Assembly: GCA_007859745.1 (NCBI GenBank)
Contig: SMLU01000004.1
Coordinates: 124,001 to 188,000 of the forward strand
From: Phycisphaerae bacterium RAS1
GTDB lineage: Bacteria; Planctomycetota; Phycisphaerae; UBA1845; Fen-1342
Direction of reading: 5' to 3'
Length of the DNA: 64,000 bases
Below the pieces are notes generated by a model. The model did not search any database, was not told where the DNA came from, and saw only the letters and a program-made list of their open reading frames with translations. Shown piece after piece: positions 5,914 through 62,971 of the stretch; positions within the stretch are counted from its first letter, which is position 1; each line of letters opens with the position of its first letter. The translations under genes were made by a program, and so were the position numbers.

Positions 5914-6028
5914 GTCCGAGCCGCGCGCGTGAGCAAGCGGTTCTCATCGCTCCGCTCCCGCACGGTCGCGGCTCGGACATAAGAACCGCTCCCTCACGGT
6001 CGCGGCTCGGAAATGTCGCGGCTCGGAT
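5914..6028. repeat. Family A palindrome cluster
   Basis: One left-type arm and three right-type arms (ACGGTCGCGGCTCGGA and a shortened version) lie in the gap between the convergent genes at 5875 and 6035. The core matches the repeats inside valS. Confidence 0.8.
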
Positions 6029-7857: not shown

Positions 7858-8445
7858 GTGAGCGTTGCCAAGAGGGTGCTGCCGGGCGTCGCCGCTGCCG
7901 GCCTGGCCTTTGCACTTCAGGCCGGCGGAGGTTGCACCGATACAACGCTCTTTCTGAACCAGACCGCCGAACGGACCGGCAACGTCACCCTCCAGTTTGT
8001 CAACAACACGGGCTTCCGGGCGGCCTTCACCTTCGGCTCGTTCGACTCGCTCGACCGCATTAACCCCGGCGTTGTCCAGCTGCAGCAATTGCGCGTCGAG
8101 GCCAACACCTCCAGCGCCGCCGTGAACCTGACGTGTCGCCGCAATATCGCCCTGGCCACGAAGGAGTTCGTCGACCGCGTCATCGAGACCGACACCGACA
8201 ACAGCACGGCGAATTTCGATCGCGATGCGTTCGGCGAGGTGGTGAACTTCTCGGACGCGCCCGCCAATTCCGAATTCGCCTCGCAGCCCACGGCGGGGAC
8301 TGCCAAGGGGCGCGAAGTGCTGCTGGGGGTGGACTACAGTTGCAACGACCGGCTGATCTTCACATTTGAGGCTGACCCCAGCGCTCCGGGCGGCTTCCGC
8401 ATCGACTTCGTCGCCATCCTCGACGAGGACGAGCCCGATCGGTAG
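7858..8445 (+). CDS. Putative lipoprotein of unknown function
   Basis: I choose GTG 7858, preceded by GAGG, because translation from there yields a clean signal sequence (VSVAKRVLPGVAAAGLAFAL) ending at AGGGC, a plausible lipoprotein cleavage site. The mature part (about 165 residues) has no recognised domain. It contains NVTLQFVNNTGFRAAF, two conserved-looking cysteines (LTCRR and DYSCND) and an acidic C-terminus. It lies seven bases before the amidase gene, so both are probably co-transcribed. An in-frame ATG at 7618 would add a non-signal N-terminus read from repeat-like DNA and is rejected. Confidence 0.6.
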   Translation: MSVAKRVLPGVAAAGLAFALQAGGGCTDTTLFLNQTAERTGNVTLQFVNNTGFRAAFTFGSFDSLDRINPGVVQLQQLRVEANTSSAAVNLTCRRNIALATKEFVDRVIETDTDNSTANFDRDAFGEVVNFSDAPANSEFASQPTAGTAKGREVLLGVDYSCNDRLIFTFEADPSAPGGFRIDFVAILDEDEPDR

Positions 8446-8452
8446 TACGCGC

Positions 8453-9646
8453 ATGACGGGCGCTCCCACCACCGATCCGCAAGGAACCGACGCCGCAACC
8501 CGGCTGCCCCCGCGCAGAAATCCCTACACGGTCGCCGTCTCGCACGCGGTCGCGGCTGCCTTCGGCGCGGTGCTGGCGAGCGTCTGGCTCGCGCCGGTTC
8601 GCACCGCGACCCTGCCCACGCCGGCGCCGGGGCCGGATCCGCTGCGCGCCGAGCCGGCCGAGTTCACCTGGGAGCAGCATCCCGAGGCCGCGTTTCCGCT
8701 GCCGCCGTACGCGGCGTTCCTGAGAGACGCGACGATCGTGATCGATCCGGGCCACGGGGGGCGTGAGGACCGGCCGAACTGGAAGCGCGGTCCGACGGGT
8801 CTGCGCGAGGAAGTAGTGAACCTGAGCGTCGCGCTTCACCTGCGCGATTTTCTGCGGGCGGCGGGGGCAAATGTGATCATGACCCGCGAGCGCGACGTCT
8901 ACCTGGACAAGGCCGACGCGGTTGATCTCAAAATGCGCGCGGAGATCGCCAATCGCGCCCGAGCCGACCTGCTGCTATCGATCCACCACAACTCAGCCGA
9001 GCGGGCCGAGGCGAACTACACGTCGGTCTTCTATCACGGCGATCCGGATGATTCGCCCGCGTCGGTCTGCGCGGCGCGCCACATTCTCGCCGGACTGAAC
9101 GACGCACTGCGGCTGTCGCAGCACATCGAATGCGCCGCCCTGAGCGACACCGTCATTTATCCGAAGGTGGGATTCGCCGTGCTGCGCGAGGCGCAGGTGC
9201 CGGCGGTGCTGGCGGAGTCGTCCTTTCACTCGAACCCGGACGAGGAGGCGCGGCTGCGCGACCCGATCTACAACCGCCGCGAGGCGTACGGGCTGTTCAT
9301 CGGCCTGGCGCGCTGGGCGCAGGCCGGGTTGCCGCGCGTGAAGCTGCTGGGCGCAGAGCGGCGGCGCGACAATCAGACTGACGTGGTCATCGAGCTGGAC
9401 GACGGTCTCAGCAAGCGCGGCGGCATGGCGGCCCGCAGCCGGAAGATCATCGAACAGTCCATCAGCGTCCGCTGGGGCGGTGCGGCGCTTCCGTTTTCGG
9501 TTGATTGGGAAAAGCGGCAATTGCGGATGACGCTGCCGGCGGGCGCGGCGTCGAAGACGCTGCGTGTCGATTTCGAAAACGTGTTCGGCCAGCACGTGCT
9601 GCATCCGCTGATGGAGCTTCGCGGGCTTTCCGAGCCGCGACCGTGA
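8453..9646 (+). CDS. N-acetylmuramoyl-L-alanine amidase (Amidase_3)
   Basis: Amidase_3 enzymes are zinc hydrolases that cleave the bond between MurNAc and the stem-peptide L-Ala in peptidoglycan. The start at ATG 8453 gives 397 residues. One N-terminal membrane segment (about residues 27-45) indicates an anchored periplasmic enzyme. The catalytic domain shows IVIDPGHGGRED (Zn ligand His101), REEVVNLSVALHLRDFL (Glu ligand), LLLSIHHNSAE (His ligand) and AVLAESSFHSNPDEEARLRD (catalytic Glu). A C-terminal beta-rich domain of about 100 residues follows. The last residues SEPRP and the TGA stop are supplied by a family A palindrome. Peptidoglycan remodelling is consistent with cell-wall synthesis in planctomycetes. 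Confidence 0.88.
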   Translation: MTGAPTTDPQGTDAATRLPPRRNPYTVAVSHAVAAAFGAVLASVWLAPVRTATLPTPAPGPDPLRAEPAEFTWEQHPEAAFPLPPYAAFLRDATIVIDPGHGGREDRPNWKRGPTGLREEVVNLSVALHLRDFLRAAGANVIMTRERDVYLDKADAVDLKMRAEIANRARADLLLSIHHNSAERAEANYTSVFYHGDPDDSPASVCAARHILAGLNDALRLSQHIECAALSDTVIYPKVGFAVLREAQVPAVLAESSFHSNPDEEARLRDPIYNRREAYGLFIGLARWAQAGLPRVKLLGAERRRDNQTDVVIELDDGLSKRGGMAARSRKIIEQSISVRWGGAALPFSVDWEKRQLRMTLPAGAASKTLRVDFENVFGQHVLHPLMELRGLSEPRP

Positions 9647-9700
9647 GGGAGCGGTTCTTCAGGCCGTTCGGGGCCGCGACCGTGAGGGAGCGATTCTTCG
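9628..9700. repeat. Family A palindromes, two tandem left arms
   Basis: CCGAGCCGCGACCGTGAGGG occurs at 9629, overlapping the amidase stop codon, and a near copy (GGCCGCGACCGTGAGGGAGC) follows at about 9671. Together with the family B element downstream they fill the convergent gap. Confidence 0.8.
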
Positions 9701-11979: not shown

Positions 11980-14900
11980 ATGAGCACCGGCGGCAGTTAC
12001 GATCCGCGCTCGATCGAGCCGGCGATTCTCGAATTCTGGGAGACGGGCGATAAAGGCCCAACGGGCAATGAACGTCGCAGCTATTTCAACGCCGACCTAC
12101 CCGACGCCTCCGCCCGCGGCAACGCGGCCAAGCCGTTCGTGATTCCGATTCCGCCGCCGAACGTGACCGGGGCGCTGCACCTGGGCCACGCGATCAACAA
12201 CACGGTGCAGGACATCATCGTCCGCTGGAAACGGATGCAGGGGTTCAACACGCTCTGGATGCCCGGCATCGACCACGCCGGCATCGCGACGCAGGCCGTT
12301 GTCGAGAAACGCCTGAAGGCGGAGCAGAACCTGACGCGCCACGACGTGGGCCGCGACGGGCTGGTCGCCAAAATCTGGGCGTGGAAGGACGAATACAGCG
12401 CCCGCATCCTCGGCCAGCTTCGCCGCATGGGGTGCTCGTGCGACTGGCGGCGGCTGCGCTTCACGCTGGACGAGATTTGTGCGAAGGCGGTGTACGAGGC
12501 GTTCTTTCAGTTCTTCAAGGCGGGGCTGATCTATCGCGGCAAGCGGATGGTGAATTGGGACGCGGCTCTGCAAACCGCCGTCGCCGACGACGAGCTGGTG
12601 CATGAGACGGTGAAGACGAATCTGTGGCACATTCGCTACCCCATCTTGAAAAGGGACCAGGGGATCAAGGGATCGAGGGATCAAGGGGAGTCGCAGTCTC
12701 TCGATCCCTTGATCCCTCGATCCCTTGATCCCTCTTTCCTCGTCGTCGCGACGACCCGACCCGAGACCATGCTCGGCGATACGGCAGTCGCCGTGCATCC
12801 GGATGACGAACGTTACAGGCACCTCATCGGCCAGCATGTGCTTCTGCCGCTGATGAATCGGCCGATCCCGATCATCGCCGACGGCGAGCTGGTGAAACAG
12901 GAATTCGGCACCGGCTGCGTGAAGGTGACGCCGGGGCACGACCCGAATGATTACGCCTGCTGGGAGCGGCACCGCGGTCAGGCGGACGAATTCGCGATTC
13001 TGGATTTGCTGACGCCGGACGGGAAGATCAACGAAGTCGGTCGCGGCAGTAGCGTCGGGACTCCGTGCCCGACGGCGTCGGCCACAGAGGGCCGACGCTA
13101 CGGTTCGTCCGACTCGGAGGTCGGACGCTACGACTATTCCGGCCTGCCGAAGGAGGAAGCTCGCAAGCGCGTCGTGGCCGATCTGGAGTCGCTCGGGCTG
13201 TTGGAAAACGTGGAGCCGTACGTGACGGAGGTGGCCCACAGCGACCGCAGCAAGACGCCGGTCGAGCCGCTGCGTAGCGAGCAGTGGTTCATGAAGATGA
13301 GCGCACTGGCGGAGCCGACGATGGAGGCCGTCCGCGACGGTCGCGTGTCGTTTACGCCGGAGCGGTATGCGAAGACGTATCTCGATTGGCTGGGGGAGAA
13401 GCGGGATTGGTGCATCAGCCGGCAGCTTTGGTGGGGGCATCGGATACCGGTGTGGACATTCAAAGCAGGCGTGAATATCGCGCCTACACCGTCACCGCAT
13501 TCCCGGTTAGACGCGCTCATAGAAGAGGGCAGGCTCTACTGCCGGTACGAAGTAGACAATCGCGAAATCAACTCTCTCGCCGCGGTAATCGGTCATCCTG
13601 CCGCTGAGAAGGTACTGCATGGTGCCTCGGCTTCCGACGACATCGAGTGGCGCAAGCTCTCTTTCTGCCCAAGGTCGGATTTCAAAGAAGACTTCGCGGC
13701 AATCGCCGATGGACTCGGGATGGAGCAAGACGCTGACGTCCTCGACACCTGGTTCAGCTCCGCGCTGTGGCCCTTCAGCACGCTCGGCTGGCCGCACGAC
13801 GGCGCGCATGAACCGAGCCGCGACCGTAAGGGAGCGGTTCTTCCGGACGCCCACACGACGTCGGACCGTCAACCGCTTCCTCACGGGCGCGGCTCGGAAG
13901 TACCCAAAGAACCGCTTCCTGACGGGCGCGGCTCGGAAGAACCGCTTCCTCACGGGCGCGGCTCGGAAGTACCCAAAGAACCGCTTCCTGACGGGCGCGG
14001 CTCGGAAAGACCGCGCGATCCGAACCCCGTCCATCCGAGCCGCGACCGTGAGGGAGCGGTTCTTCGACGCGCCGCGTCCGGCGCCGATCCGCAGGCATAC
14101 CTGATTACGTTTCACACGTACGGAACCTGGCTGCACGGCGCGGAACAGGGCTCCGTCGATCGTGAACACAACATCCCGGGTGAGCCCTACGTGGCTGCCG
14201 ATTCGCAGCGCGAGCGAGAGGAGTTTGTTCGATTGGCGCGTGAGCCGGTGAAATTGGACGACGCGCAACGCGCCCTCGTCGACCGGACCATTCACGAAGT
14301 TGCGGAGCACCGCGGGTGGACCCTGCACGCGCTGAACGTCCGCACGAATCACGTGCACGTCGTCGTGAGCGCCCCGGGTTCACCCGAACGGGTCATGAAT
14401 GACTTCAAGTCATACGCGTCGCGTCGTATGGTCGAGGCGCGGGTCTTTCCGCCGGACACGCCGGCATGGTCGCGCCACGGCAGTACGCGCTATCTTTGGA
14501 CGATGGATGACGTTCGGGGGGCGTGCGAATATGTGGACGAACATCAGGGTGGCGATCTTGGGACGGGAAAAGAACCGCTTCCTCACGGTCGCGGCTCGGA
14601 AGGGCGCGAAGAACCGCTCCCTCACGGTCGCGGCTCGGAAAGGCGTGAAAAACCGCTTCCTCACGGTCGCGGCTCGGAAGGGCGCGAAGAACCGCTCCCT
14701 TACGGTCGCGGCTCGGAAGGGCGCGAAGAACCGCTCCCTCACGGTCGCGGCTCGGAAGGGCGTGAAAAACCGCTTCCTCACGGTCGCGGCTCGGAAAATA
14801 CTGGGCGCGGCTCGGAAAGACCGGCCGAACCCGACCTCTCGACCCCTTCGCGAAGCGATTTCGAGCATTTCTTCCCCACCGACACGCTCATCACCGGCCG

Positions 14901-16425
14901 CGGGATCATCACGCTCTGGGTCGCGCGGATGGTGATGACCAGCCTCTATTTCACCGGCCGCGTGCCGTTCAACCGCGTCTATATCAACCCGACGATCCTC
15001 GACGGCCGCGGCGAGATCATGAACAAGAGCAAGGGCAACGGCCTGGACCCGCTCGACATCATCGAGGCCTACGGCACCGACGCCCTGCGCTTCACGCTGG
15101 CCCAATCGGCCACGGAGACGCAGGACCTGCGCATGCCCGTGGCCTACCGTTGTCCGCATTGCGGCCACCTGACGCCGCACACATCCGTGGTGCCGCACAA
15201 CAAGTATCCGATCGACGTGCACAAGGCGGCCTGCGGCTCGTGCAAGAAGCCGTTCGCGACGGTGTGGGCGCCGCAGGCGCTCAAGGACGAGCTGGGCGTG
15301 GCGCTGGATACGTCGGAGCGGTTCGAACTGGGGCGGAATTTCTGCAACAAGCTCTGGCAGGCGGCGACGGGGTACATCATTCCCGCGGTGAAGGATGTCC
15401 GTATCGCCGTCCGCACGGCGACGATTGATGGCAAGGCGTGCAAGCTCCATACCTCGTGCCCGCCGAAGGAACTGAACCTCTTCGACCGCTGGATTCGCAC
15501 GCGGGCGCAGCATTGCATCGCCGAAGTAGCGGAGTCGTTTGAACACTTCGAGTTTGCGCGGGCCTGCGAGTCGATCCGCACGTTCTTCTGGACCGAGTTC
15601 TGCGACTGGTATCTGGAAGAATCCAAGGACCGCGTCAAGGGACCCGACGACGACGCCAACGACGCAAAGATCGTGCTGTTGCAGACGCTGGATGTCGTGC
15701 TCGGCCTGTTGCACCCCATTGCGCCGTTTGTGACGGAGGCGATCTGGAAGAAACTCAGCGTCGACCCGGACTGGCCCGAAGTAGAAGAACCGATCGAGGG
15801 CAGGCCAGCGACTGGGCTCCAGCGACACTACGAGCTGGTCAGCGACACGCACCAGACAGAAGCCCCGGCGCCCGCATTGGTTGTTGCGGAATGGCCCGGC
15901 GTATGGAAGGAAGTACAGGACTCGCTCGTCGATCGCCAAGTGGGCAACCTCCTCCAGCCGATCATCCGTGCATTGCGCGACAAGCGCACGTCGATCAACG
16001 TCATCCGCTCGGCCAGCAAGGAGCCGGCGCTGCGCGAGCTGCCGCTCGGCGTCATTCGAGCCAGCGGCGACGACGAGCGAGTCATCCGCGATTTCGAACG
16101 GCTGATTTGTCGCCTGGGGAGCTGCAAGGAGCTCCAGATCGGCCCCACCGTCGCCAAGCCGACGCCCGCGATGAGCGCCGTCCTCACCGGCGTCGAGGTC
16201 TTCGTGCCGCTGGCCGGCCTGGCCGATCCGTCGATCGAGAAAGCCCGGCTCGAAAGGGAAATGGCCGAAGTCGCAGCCGCCATCGGCCGCGTCGAGGCCA
16301 AGCTGGCCAACGAGGGCTTCGTCGCCAAGGCGCCCGCGGCGCTGATTGAGCAGGAGCGGGCCCGCATGGCGGAGATGCAGCAGCGCCTGGCCGCGATGCG
16401 GGCTAATCTGGCCGACATCTCGTGA
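11980..16425 (+). CDS. valS: Valyl-tRNA synthetase with in-frame repeat and transposase insertions
   Basis: ValRS charges tRNA-Val. The start at ATG 11980 follows AGGAAG and gives 1481 residues, against 880-950 in most bacteria. Synthetase signatures are intact: GALHLGHAINN (HIGH motif, His67-His70), RDWCISRQLWWGHRIPVW, DVLDTWFSSALWPFSTLGWP, TGRGIITLWVARM, the KMSKS equivalent MNKSKGN (KSKGN at 1016-1020), FELGRNFCNKLW and a C-terminal coiled coil. Additions are a word-repeat tract (about 225-252), a family D tract (about 357-384), an insertion of about 347 residues between FSTLGWP and DFEHFFPT containing a RAYT transposase domain, and a four-Cys zinc ribbon (Cys1058, 1061, 1085, 1088). No stop or frameshift interrupts the frame. 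Confidence 0.93.
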   Translation: MSTGGSYDPRSIEPAILEFWETGDKGPTGNERRSYFNADLPDASARGNAAKPFVIPIPPPNVTGALHLGHAINNTVQDIIVRWKRMQGFNTLWMPGIDHAGIATQAVVEKRLKAEQNLTRHDVGRDGLVAKIWAWKDEYSARILGQLRRMGCSCDWRRLRFTLDEICAKAVYEAFFQFFKAGLIYRGKRMVNWDAALQTAVADDELVHETVKTNLWHIRYPILKRDQGIKGSRDQGESQSLDPLIPRSLDPSFLVVATTRPETMLGDTAVAVHPDDERYRHLIGQHVLLPLMNRPIPIIADGELVKQEFGTGCVKVTPGHDPNDYACWERHRGQADEFAILDLLTPDGKINEVGRGSSVGTPCPTASATEGRRYGSSDSEVGRYDYSGLPKEEARKRVVADLESLGLLENVEPYVTEVAHSDRSKTPVEPLRSEQWFMKMSALAEPTMEAVRDGRVSFTPERYAKTYLDWLGEKRDWCISRQLWWGHRIPVWTFKAGVNIAPTPSPHSRLDALIEEGRLYCRYEVDNREINSLAAVIGHPAAEKVLHGASASDDIEWRKLSFCPRSDFKEDFAAIADGLGMEQDADVLDTWFSSALWPFSTLGWPHDGAHEPSRDRKGAVLPDAHTTSDRQPLPHGRGSEVPKEPLPDGRGSEEPLPHGRGSEVPKEPLPDGRGSERPRDPNPVHPSRDREGAVLRRAASGADPQAYLITFHTYGTWLHGAEQGSVDREHNIPGEPYVAADSQREREEFVRLAREPVKLDDAQRALVDRTIHEVAEHRGWTLHALNVRTNHVHVVVSAPGSPERVMNDFKSYASRRMVEARVFPPDTPAWSRHGSTRYLWTMDDVRGACEYVDEHQGGDLGTGKEPLPHGRGSEGREEPLPHGRGSERREKPLPHGRGSEGREEPLPYGRGSEGREEPLPHGRGSEGREKPLPHGRGSENTGRGSERPAEPDLSTPSRSDFEHFFPTDTLITGRGIITLWVARMVMTSLYFTGRVPFNRVYINPTILDGRGEIMNKSKGNGLDPLDIIEAYGTDALRFTLAQSATETQDLRMPVAYRCPHCGHLTPHTSVVPHNKYPIDVHKAACGSCKKPFATVWAPQALKDELGVALDTSERFELGRNFCNKLWQAATGYIIPAVKDVRIAVRTATIDGKACKLHTSCPPKELNLFDRWIRTRAQHCIAEVAESFEHFEFARACESIRTFFWTEFCDWYLEESKDRVKGPDDDANDAKIVLLQTLDVVLGLLHPIAPFVTEAIWKKLSVDPDWPEVEEPIEGRPATGLQRHYELVSDTHQTEAPAPALVVAEWPGVWKEVQDSLVDRQVGNLLQPIIRALRDKRTSINVIRSASKEPALRELPLGVIRASGDDERVIRDFERLICRLGSCKELQIGPTVAKPTPAMSAVLTGVEVFVPLAGLADPSIEKARLEREMAEVAAAIGRVEAKLANEGFVAKAPAALIEQERARMAEMQQRLAAMRANLADIS
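12652..12735. repeat. Family W hairpin of reiterated words inside valS
   Basis: GGGATCAAGGGATCGAGG-type words on the left are mirrored by CCTCGATCCCTTGATCCC on the right. It is translated in frame as KGSRDQG...SLDPLIPRSLDP, within the editing-domain approach of ValRS. Confidence 0.75.
13049..13132. repeat. Family D palindromes inside valS
   Basis: GTAGCGTCGGGACTCCGTGC and its mirror GGCCGACGCTACGG are followed by TCCGACTCGGAGGTCGGACG. It is translated in frame as GRGSSVGTP...GRRYGSSDSEVGRYD, directly before YSGLPKEEARKRV, which resumes the synthetase. Confidence 0.75.
14089..14559 (+). mobile_element. RAYT / IS200-type Y1 transposase domain, translated within ValRS
   Basis: This is about 157 residues of the REP-associated tyrosine transposase family (HUH endonucleases that nick single-stranded DNA at REP hairpins). 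Recognisable blocks are AYLITFHTYGTWLHG, GSVDREHNIPG, NVRTNHVHVVVSAPGSPERV with the HxH pair (His791 and His793 in ValRS numbering), MNDFKSYASRRM with the probable catalytic Tyr812, WSRHGSTRYLW and a final CEYVDEHQGG. The domain looks essentially full length and all key residues are present. No ATG, GTG or TTG in this frame lies between the preceding repeat and the domain, so it would be made only as part of ValRS. Confidence 0.85.
14572..14818. repeat. 39-bp tandem array of family A arms encoding EPLPHGRGSE
   Basis: There are six copies of a 39-base unit whose core is CCTCACGGTCGCGGCTCGGA, plus a truncated seventh. The linkers alternate between GGCGCGAA and GGCGTGAAA forms. It is translated as EPLPHGRGSEGRE with substitutions Lys for Glu and Tyr for His. 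The unit length preserves the valS frame. Confidence 0.85.
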
Positions 16426-36616: not shown

Positions 36617-36735
36617 AACCGAGCCGCGACCGTGAGGGAGCGGTGGTCGATCGACCGCCGGAAGCCACTCCCTCACGGTCGCGGCTCGGACACGCGCCAC
36701 TCGCGCTCGACCGCCGGCGCGGGGGCCGGCCGCTA
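36617..36735. repeat. Family A inverted pair and family C palindrome
   Basis: A left arm (CCGAGCCGCGACCGTGAGGG) and a right arm (CCTCACGGTCGCGGCTCGGA) face each other across about 27 bases. A family C palindrome (GGCGCGGGGGCCGGCCGCTA) follows. Together they fill the gap between two minus-strand genes. Confidence 0.8.
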
Positions 36736-47814: not shown

Positions 47815-47880
47815 CCAAGCCGCGACCGTGTCGGAGCAGTAGCTTGAAAACCGCTTGCTTACGCGCGCGGCTCGGACTGG
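47815..47880. repeat. Family A unit
   Basis: A left arm (AAGCCGCGACCGTGTCGGAG) and a right arm of the variant type (GCTTACGCGCGCGGCTCGGA) face each other across about 15 bases. With the family D pair it fills the convergent gap before uvrB. Confidence 0.75.
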
Positions 47881-61498: not shown

Positions 61499-62869
61499 AT
61501 GAACGACTCGCCCCAGAAACTCGCCCTCCTCGGCGGCCCGAAAACGCGACACACTCCCTTCCCGCCGCATCCGGTGATCGGCAAAGAGGAGAAACAGGCC
61601 GTCCTCGACGTGTTGAGCCGCGGCAAGCTCTCCACGTTCCTCGCCGTTCCGGGCGAGTACTTCAACGGCGGCGCAGAGATTCGGCGCTTCGAGCGCGAGT
61701 TCGCCGACTATCACGGCGTGCGCTTCGCGGTCGCGTTCAATTCGGCGACCGCCGCGCTTCACGCCGCCGTCGCCGCCGTCGGCGTGCAGCCCGGGGAGGA
61801 AGTCATCGTTCCGCCCTACACATTCACGTCGACCGCCACGTGCGCGTTGATGCACAACGCCATCCCCGTCTTCGCGGACATCGACGATACGTACTTCTGC
61901 CTCGACCCCGCCGCCGTCGCGCGCAGCGTCAGCCCGCTGACGCGCGCCCTGATCCCGGTGCACCTCTTCGGCGGCACGGCGGATATGGACGGCTTGCTGG
62001 CGGTCGCCCGCAAACACAACCTGAAAGTGATCGAAGACTGCGCCCAAGCCCCCGGCGCCGAGTACCGCGGCCGAAAGGTCGGCGCCATCGGCGACTGTGG
62101 CGTCTTCAGCTTTACCGAGTCAAAGACGATCACCAGCGGCGAAGGCGGCATGCTCATCACCAGCGACGAGCAGATCGCCGAAGTCGTCCGCATGGTCCGA
62201 AACCACGGCGAGATCATCCTCGACGGCCAGAAGGAACGCACCTACCGCTCGACGATCCTCGGCTGGAACTACCGCATGACCGAGATGGACGCCGCGCTGG
62301 GTCGCGTGCAGTTCGGACGGCTCGACACGCTCAACGCGGTCCGCCGCGATCTATGCGGCTACCTCTCGCGGCAGCTTTCCGGCCTGCCCGGCCTGACGCC
62401 GCCGGCGGTTCGAGCCGATTGCACGCATGGGTTCTACCTGTACGCGATGAAATTCGACCCCGCCACGGCTGGCATCTCGCGTAGCCAGTTCCTGCACGCG
62501 GTCCAGGCGGAGGGGTTGCCGATCGCCGCCGGCTATGTGCGGCCGCTCTACCTGAATCCAATCTACCAGGAGAACCGCGCCGCGGCGTTCGCGTTCTACC
62601 GCGGCCAGGCGCGCTATGAGAAGGGCCTTTGTGCGGTGACCGAGCGCATGCACGAGCAGGAGCTGCTGACCTTGAGCGTGCTGCGCGCCCCGGCGACGCG
62701 CGCGGACGTGGATGACTTCGTGGCCGCGTTCAAAAAAGTGCTCGGCGGCGCCGCCGAGATTCGCAACGCCGGCACGATCGAAACGTTGCAGGGAAGCGCG
62801 AGACACGCGCCCGGGCCCGCGCCTGCGAAGCTCTTTCCGAGCCGCGACCGTGAGGGAGCGGTGGCTTAA
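61499..62869 (+). CDS. DegT/DnrJ/EryC1/StrS sugar aminotransferase
   Basis: The 456-residue PLP enzyme opens with KLALLGGPKTRHTPFPPHPVIGKEE and shows FNSATAALHAAV, VIVPPYTFTSTATCA, VIEDCAQAPGAEYRG and FSFTESKTITSGEGGML, whose Lys carries PLP. NYRMTEMDAALGRVQ follows. Such enzymes aminate keto sugars or keto-inositols, in line with the preceding oxidoreductase. The C-terminus departs from the family at about AGTIETLQ. The last ten residues (PSRDREGAVA) and the TAA stop are read from a family A palindrome. Confidence 0.88.
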   Translation: MNDSPQKLALLGGPKTRHTPFPPHPVIGKEEKQAVLDVLSRGKLSTFLAVPGEYFNGGAEIRRFEREFADYHGVRFAVAFNSATAALHAAVAAVGVQPGEEVIVPPYTFTSTATCALMHNAIPVFADIDDTYFCLDPAAVARSVSPLTRALIPVHLFGGTADMDGLLAVARKHNLKVIEDCAQAPGAEYRGRKVGAIGDCGVFSFTESKTITSGEGGMLITSDEQIAEVVRMVRNHGEIILDGQKERTYRSTILGWNYRMTEMDAALGRVQFGRLDTLNAVRRDLCGYLSRQLSGLPGLTPPAVRADCTHGFYLYAMKFDPATAGISRSQFLHAVQAEGLPIAAGYVRPLYLNPIYQENRAAAFAFYRGQARYEKGLCAVTERMHEQELLTLSVLRAPATRADVDDFVAAFKKVLGGAAEIRNAGTIETLQGSARHAPGPAPAKLFPSRDREGAVA

Positions 62870-62971
62870 GAACCGCTTGCTGACGCGCGCGGCTCGGATC
62901 AAACGCGTTCCGAGCCGCGACCGTGAGGGAGCGGTGGCTTAAGAACCGCTTGCTGACGCGCGCGGCTCGGA
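62836..62971. repeat. Family A, two tandem complete units
   Basis: Two near-identical units of about 62 bases each join a left arm (CCGAGCCGCGACCGTGAGGG) to a right arm (GACGCGCGCGGCTCGGA) through GGTGGCTTAAGAACC. Each unit folds as one long hairpin. These are the cleanest complete copies of family A in the window and define its unit. Confidence 0.85.

Follow-up and report, generated by a model that had tools for sequence, protein, structure and literature searches.

A REP-flanked transposase domain of class-3 TnpA-Y1 type within the valyl-tRNA synthetase frame of a Phycisphaerae-like bacterium

The TnpA-Y1 transposases are divided into classes by the motif that follows the catalytic tyrosine, which is Y---Q in class 1, Y---NP in class 2 (the RAYTs) and Y----Q in class 3 (PMC6006769). 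Class 3 is rare, is found mostly in Planctomycetes, Acidobacteria and Proteobacteria, and is associated with hairpins that carry a CnGA foot; how and why genomes keep single-copy REP transposases is an open question (PMC6006769). REPs are also known in frame within coding genes, tRNA synthetases included, where they encode about 20-82 residues; like the palindromic elements of Rickettsia they are apparently tolerated, and they come without a transposase (PMC3733652).

Here we describe a TnpA-Y1 domain that lies in frame within valS, the gene for valyl-tRNA synthetase (ValRS), in a 64,000-nucleotide stretch of DNA (the window) from a Phycisphaerae-like genome of 5.5 Mb (7 contigs, 99% complete). 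It resembles the class-3 proteins, which occur mainly in Planctomycetes and Acidobacteria, in its HuH core, its conserved tryptophan and its Y----Q motif, and also in being flanked by many hairpins, with a CCGA foot that matches CnGA; unlike them, since they are described as free genes (PMC6006769), it is situated inside a presumably essential enzyme and has no start or stop codon of its own. With the class-2 RAYTs (TnpAREP) and their REPtrons (E. coli 4er8; PMC6006769) it shares the fold, the inverted REP flanks and the association with REPs, but not the Y---NP motif; the copies in the isoleucyl-tRNA synthetase (IleRS) and GcvP of the same genome are of the RAYT kind. Its palindromes are comparable to the intragenic REPs, whereas the valS insert holds the enzyme itself. 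Inteins with homing endonucleases and IStrons are familiar cases of a nuclease gene that persists inside an essential host gene, and the valS insert is similar in this respect, although it bears no signature of protein or RNA splicing and appears to be retained in the mature protein. In the open-licence literature we found no described transposase inside an aminoacyl-tRNA synthetase, in agreement with the initial annotation of this DNA; in-frame REPs in proteins are known, and the embedded transposases are, within that literature, new.

The valS frame runs without a stop from the ATG at 11980 to the TGA at 16425, as initially read (Table 1). Matches to the ValRS models of Pfam and NCBIfam flank the insert on either side, the conserved domains are complete, with the KMSKS motif present as IMNKS, and a second valS, an intact copy of which had been raised as a possibility, was looked for genome-wide and not found. 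The single copy, together with what is established for synthetases, suggests that valS is essential. In an alignment to the T. thermophilus enzyme (1gax) query residue 607 pairs with Tth 472 and query residue 959 with Tth 474, and this jump defines the insert as residues 608-958; the extra codons first noticed between FSTLGWP and DFEHFFPT are thus real, albeit 351 and not about 347 in number. At the same site, relatives have 5 to 131 residues, consisting of other repeats or of the same REPs without a transposase. The palindromic repeat further upstream in valS lies in the loop region that holds the embedded RAYT in the IleRS of this genome.

Table 1. Features of the valS locus (window positions) and other host genes with embedded transposases
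Feature	Position	Strand	Basis or remarks
valS, sole valyl-tRNA synthetase, 1,481 aa with insert	11980..16425	+	TIGR00422, 825 bits; PRK05729, 945 bits
Second in-frame palindromic repeat, GGGATCAAGGGATCGAGGG type, without transposase, CP1 loop of valS	12651..12734	+	TRF, translation, IleRS comparison
Third apparent in-frame repeat-type insert in valS, GTCGGGACTCCGTGCCCGAC..	13035..13135	+	Sequence inspection and translation only
In-frame insert, residues 608-958, 351 codons, FSTLGWP-FxPT loop	13801..14853	+	1gax alignment
Left REP array, 6 REPs: 13813(+), 13873(-), 13912(-), 13942(-), 13981(-), 14035(+)	13813..14059	+	One codon phase, PSRDREGA or PLPHGRGS
Class-3 TnpA-Y1 (HUH) domain, residues 701-861, complete, no own start or stop	14080..14562	+	Pfam Y1_Tnp, AlphaFold2, Foldseek, alignment
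HUH motif His791-Val792-His793	14350..14358	+	Both His invariant in 43 homologues
Trp830, conserved TnpA-Y1 core W	14467..14469	+	Invariant in 43 homologues; residue described in PMC6006769
Catalytic Tyr851 and metal-ligand Gln856, Y----Q	14530..14547	+	Invariant in 43 homologues; signature from PMC6006769
Right REP array, 6 REPs, all on the minus strand, period 39 (13 codons)	14575..14794	+	
IleRS of source genome, 1436-aa frame, class-2 RAYT in CP1 editing-domain loop	C3:127500-134500	minus	
GcvP of source genome, 1228-aa frame, class-2 RAYT	C1:695500-703500	minus	Flanked by VARPPS / RPGAAGL repeats
AlaRS, three sites			Same clade as window copy; 12 genomes
ValRS, second site ('SDQWYVKVTDD')			Same clade; G481, G311, G485 and ten GTDB-collection loci
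BREX-2 PglX methyltransferase of G404 (single contig)			1574 bits; holds embedded class-3 transposase
PurH, one common site			Sister-group Y1 transposase, Y---Q; 7 genomes (loci L175-L178, L182-L184)
ValRS, second site			Sister group; 3 genomes
LeuRS			Sister group; 1 genome
IleRS, CP1 loop			Class-2 RAYT; source genome and 5 others
IleRS, before KMSKS region			Class-2 RAYT; 3 genomes

Both domain and fold place the embedded segment in the IS200/IS605 Y1 superfamily: Pfam Y1_Tnp (PF01797) matches valS residues 763-819 with 31 bits against a cut-off of 23, an AlphaFold2 model of the domain has a pLDDT of 83, and all 30 Foldseek matches of that model below E 1e-3 are IS200/IS605/RAYT transposases, 4er8 included. 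The initial annotation had called the segment a near-complete RAYT/Y1 transposase with HxH at 791/793 and Tyr812 as the candidate catalytic residue. Its Y1_Tnp assignment is borne out by Pfam, NCBIfam and Foldseek alike, and the two histidines were correctly placed, being among the residues invariant across the alignment of 43 homologues together with Trp830, Tyr851 and Gln856. Tyr812, in contrast, is a histidine in a free homologue, which rules it out as the catalytic residue in favour of Tyr851, invariant like Gln856, and the domain is complete rather than nearly so, because free relatives end directly past the equivalent of residue 860. The RAYT label also needs revision: the window copy reads YVDEHQ, the HuH and Y----Q combination of class 3, the Y---NP of class 2 is absent from it, and its score with the RAYT model NF047646 is 30 bits, under the cut-off of 80. 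By motif, host group and hairpin foot, with 12 flanking REPs of high copy number in the genome, the valS domain appears to fit class-3 TnpA-Y1, as judged from sequence.

Both arrays in the insert are read in the same phase, all 12 REPs appearing in the protein as PSRDREGA or PLPHGRGS. The REP consensus is CCGAGCCGCGACCGTGAGGGAGCGG, its foot is CCGA, and as single-stranded DNA it is predicted to fold with a 2-bp inner stem set off from a 7-bp stem by a tandem mismatch. This fold has only a modest z-score (-1.7), and the better argument for a hairpin is therefore provided by compensatory change, in which variants with G11-C18 in place of C11-G18 are found in the window 36 nt away from other copies and inverted relative to them. 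The REPs immediately flanking the transposase are in inverted orientation, which is the layout of a REPtron. The genome contains 367 REPs (25-mer, up to 3 mismatches) or 497 (degenerate pattern) against no copies of a reversed-pattern control, and such numbers of the flanking type are not attributable to chance. Such REPs are absent from the 3-kb locus around the free class-3 gene of this genome (C4:523), which leaves the valS copy as the one class-3 gene here that was observed alongside them. Elsewhere in the window (5916-5986, 36619-36690, 47815-47876, 62837-62971) the REPs form inverted doublets about 36-46 nt apart, resembling REPINs or BIMEs, often with a canonical copy paired with a compensatory variant, and at 9630-9654 a REP apparently encodes the C-terminal SEPRP and the stop codon of an amidase-like ORF (8366-9646).

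Within the order, matching REPs are more numerous where embedded copies are present, with a median of 58 per genome in carriers of embedded subfamily-I copies, 16.5 in those with free copies only and 6 in those with none (p 0.003 and 1e-4, on counts uncorrected for phylogeny). There are also REP-rich genomes in which no intact class-3 gene was found, such as G113 with 271 REPs and G079 with 230, some assemblies being incomplete.

The valS copy lacks the start and stop codons of an autonomous insertion sequence. No in-frame ATG, GTG or TTG precedes the first core strand, the first GTG (14191) being within the domain, and no stop codon directly follows the core; it follows that fusion is the only form in which this copy can exist, as had been proposed from the outset. 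The accompanying proposal that the element is hard to lose is, in that form, doubtful. Each of the 24 same-direction REP pairs that span the transposase would delete the domain in frame (a multiple of three), which rules out the notion that any direct REP recombination wrecks the host gene, and in relatives this loop holds REP arrays alone. Since in-frame loss is easy in principle, conservation of the domain is the more telling, and what speaks for its retention is selection acting on it, rather than an inability to be excised.

A search of 114 genomes from this order, mostly MAGs, with a profile of the subfamily showed that nearly all of the top-scoring copies lie within very long frames. For a selection of these the host was named by NCBIfam models, and the host counts in Table 1 are lower bounds from targeted profile searches. 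Two transposase copies are present inside one AlaRS of G011, a genome of the same family, and where an alaS with an embedded copy is whole, it is the sole alaS of its genome. The ten GTDB-collection loci with a copy at the second ValRS site come mostly from Phycisphaerales or Phycisphaeraceae MAGs, some possibly representing the same genomes. Loci L230 and L240 look like further hosts of the DNA-methylase type. Embedding in AlaRS, ValRS, IleRS, LeuRS, PurH and GcvP rules out a unique accident, and the source genome alone has an embedded transposase in each of valS, ileS and gcvP, three in all. The RAYT in its IleRS has inverted repeats of its own (GGTGVSPV / DGRDARPTH) and scores 72.3 bits with NF047646, below the 80-bit cut-off that the GcvP copy passes with 90.8 bits. 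This IleRS also contains several further in-frame repeats of the GTGNREQGT type, so that the genome evidently tolerates many repeat families in its core enzymes. Catalytic residues are nearly invariant among embedded copies, the PurH copy of G018 lacking the first HUH histidine. Two frames were left out because the host is uncertain, namely a 1408-aa frame of G102 with a Y1 transposase before MutS and a 469-aa frame of G097 that is probably a spurious extension; the former, whose start site is uncertain, also reads a long SPGIHAGSSA repeat ahead of MutS.

Free and embedded copies differ at their ends: in free copies a methionine adjoins the core and the stop codon comes right past EGQGxDL, whereas embedded copies have neither, with G058 the one exception for the methionine. 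A tree of 47 rows groups the embedded subfamily-I copies into one clade (support 96/87) that includes a single free member; there the window copy pairs with the site-C copy from the AlaRS of G011 as its sister (97/94). The embedded and free states cluster on the tree, requiring 4 changes, a number as low as which was reached in none of 500 shuffles. Within the embedded clade sites and hosts are intermixed, and a tree fully congruent with the hosts was not found; in particular AlaRS sites A and B mix, and the copies are thus neither purely vertical in descent nor the product of a single event. This pattern suggests that the unit has moved between synthetase genes while staying embedded, although for copies at equal sites the host genes themselves may instead have been exchanged laterally.

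The PurH copies allow selection to be compared within single genes. In a same-genus pair with the transposase at the same site, dS is 0.64 for the transposase and 0.74 for the host, values similar enough to indicate that the transposase was inherited with the host, and dN/dS rises from 0.127 in the transposase to 0.239 in PurH and 0.49 in the linkers. Two other same-site PurH pairs gave 0.085, 0.273 and 0.58, and 0.158, 0.273 and 0.45, in the same order, transposase dS being saturated in several same-site pairs. The PurH-embedded transposases are under stronger purifying selection than either host or linkers. For the window copy compared with four homologues pN/pS is about 0.3, with pS saturated, a value compatible with such selection but not a clean test of it.

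Our preferred reading, to which we assign a probability of about 0.72 on sequence evidence, is that the insert is a REP-transposase-REP unit, in which ValRS carries a working REP-processing nuclease as a domain in a surface loop, translated only as a fusion. The fusion would fold as a synthetase with the nuclease tethered on flexible, REP-encoded linkers, and the nuclease would nick and rejoin REP hairpins in single-stranded DNA, an activity that could maintain the approximately 370-500 REPs of the genome. Permissive loops may first gain in-frame REPs, after which the transposase would enter or leave a REP-bearing loop either by REP-REP recombination or by its own activity. With an essential host gene, survival would be limited to events that keep the frame and fall in tolerant loops, and since the unit has no start or stop, expression of a new copy would require an in-frame landing in some other host gene. 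Persistence would then depend both on selection on the domain and on the frameshift intolerance of the host gene. A broader claim, that this is an obligately intragenic lineage which uses in-phase REP arrays to spread among essential genes (AlaRS, ValRS) and whose only expressed form is a domain within host enzymes, is put forward tentatively, at slightly less than even odds.

Several other explanations can be weighed against this. Repeat arrays can mislead assemblers, but an artefact of assembly or binning is hard to reconcile with the recurrence of the architecture in many unrelated assemblies, single-contig genomes among them (ValRS of G481, PurH of G032 and G036). The related idea that the insert is an intron or intein removed from the product fares no better: an Rfam scan of 13400-15300 gave only sub-threshold miRNA matches, ruling out a group I or II intron, scanning the entire protein with Pfam and NCBIfam listed no intein family, and the junctions are REPs. 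We regard artefact and removal together as highly improbable. Release of the domain as a separate protein, by linker proteolysis or internal initiation, is simply unlikely; the linkers, judged from their translation, are long, hydrophilic, repetitive and probably disordered, while initiation within the frame is countered by the lack of any start codon before the first core strand.

It could also be argued that the domain is a neutral passenger in a tolerant loop, now functionless and open only because stops or frameshifts would kill ValRS. The host frame by itself would keep the transposase free of stops, its distribution is patchy, and the PurH copy of G018 has lost an HUH histidine; yet missense change is suppressed as well, with dN/dS of 0.09-0.16 in the same-site PurH pairs against 0.45-0.58 in the adjoining linkers, and the H, H, W, Y and Q residues are unchanged throughout the 43 homologues, which makes this explanation distinctly unlikely in our judgement. 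Domestication in the service of the host enzyme, through tRNA or single-strand binding or regulation rather than REP movement, seems improbable. Copies occur at several sites in AlaRS, ValRS and IleRS and also in PurH, GcvP and BREX-2 PglX, with different classes of transposase, and close relatives do without the domain; moreover, catalytic residues are kept beyond those for binding, and REPs flank the embedded copies that were read. Strong conservation of the domain and the preponderance of aminoacyl-tRNA synthetases among the hosts found are the points in its favour.

Embedding in essential genes, as envisaged in the REP-transposase-REP reading, offers a concrete and testable answer to the question of how single-copy REP transposases are maintained, as it would couple expression of the transposase to that of the host enzyme, preserve its frame and limit new copies to in-frame landings. 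These observations also suggest that the loops of synthetases can accommodate an entire foreign enzyme, and that a long aminoacyl-tRNA synthetase annotation in a planctomycete is not necessarily an error; AlaRS, ValRS, IleRS and LeuRS provide a natural set of insertion-tolerant sites. The recurrence across three groups of transposases is more suggestive of a general process than of an accident. If the lineage is indeed obligately intragenic, then together with the parallel lineages in IleRS and PurH it would mean that mobile DNA regularly inhabits essential enzymes in the Phycisphaerae.
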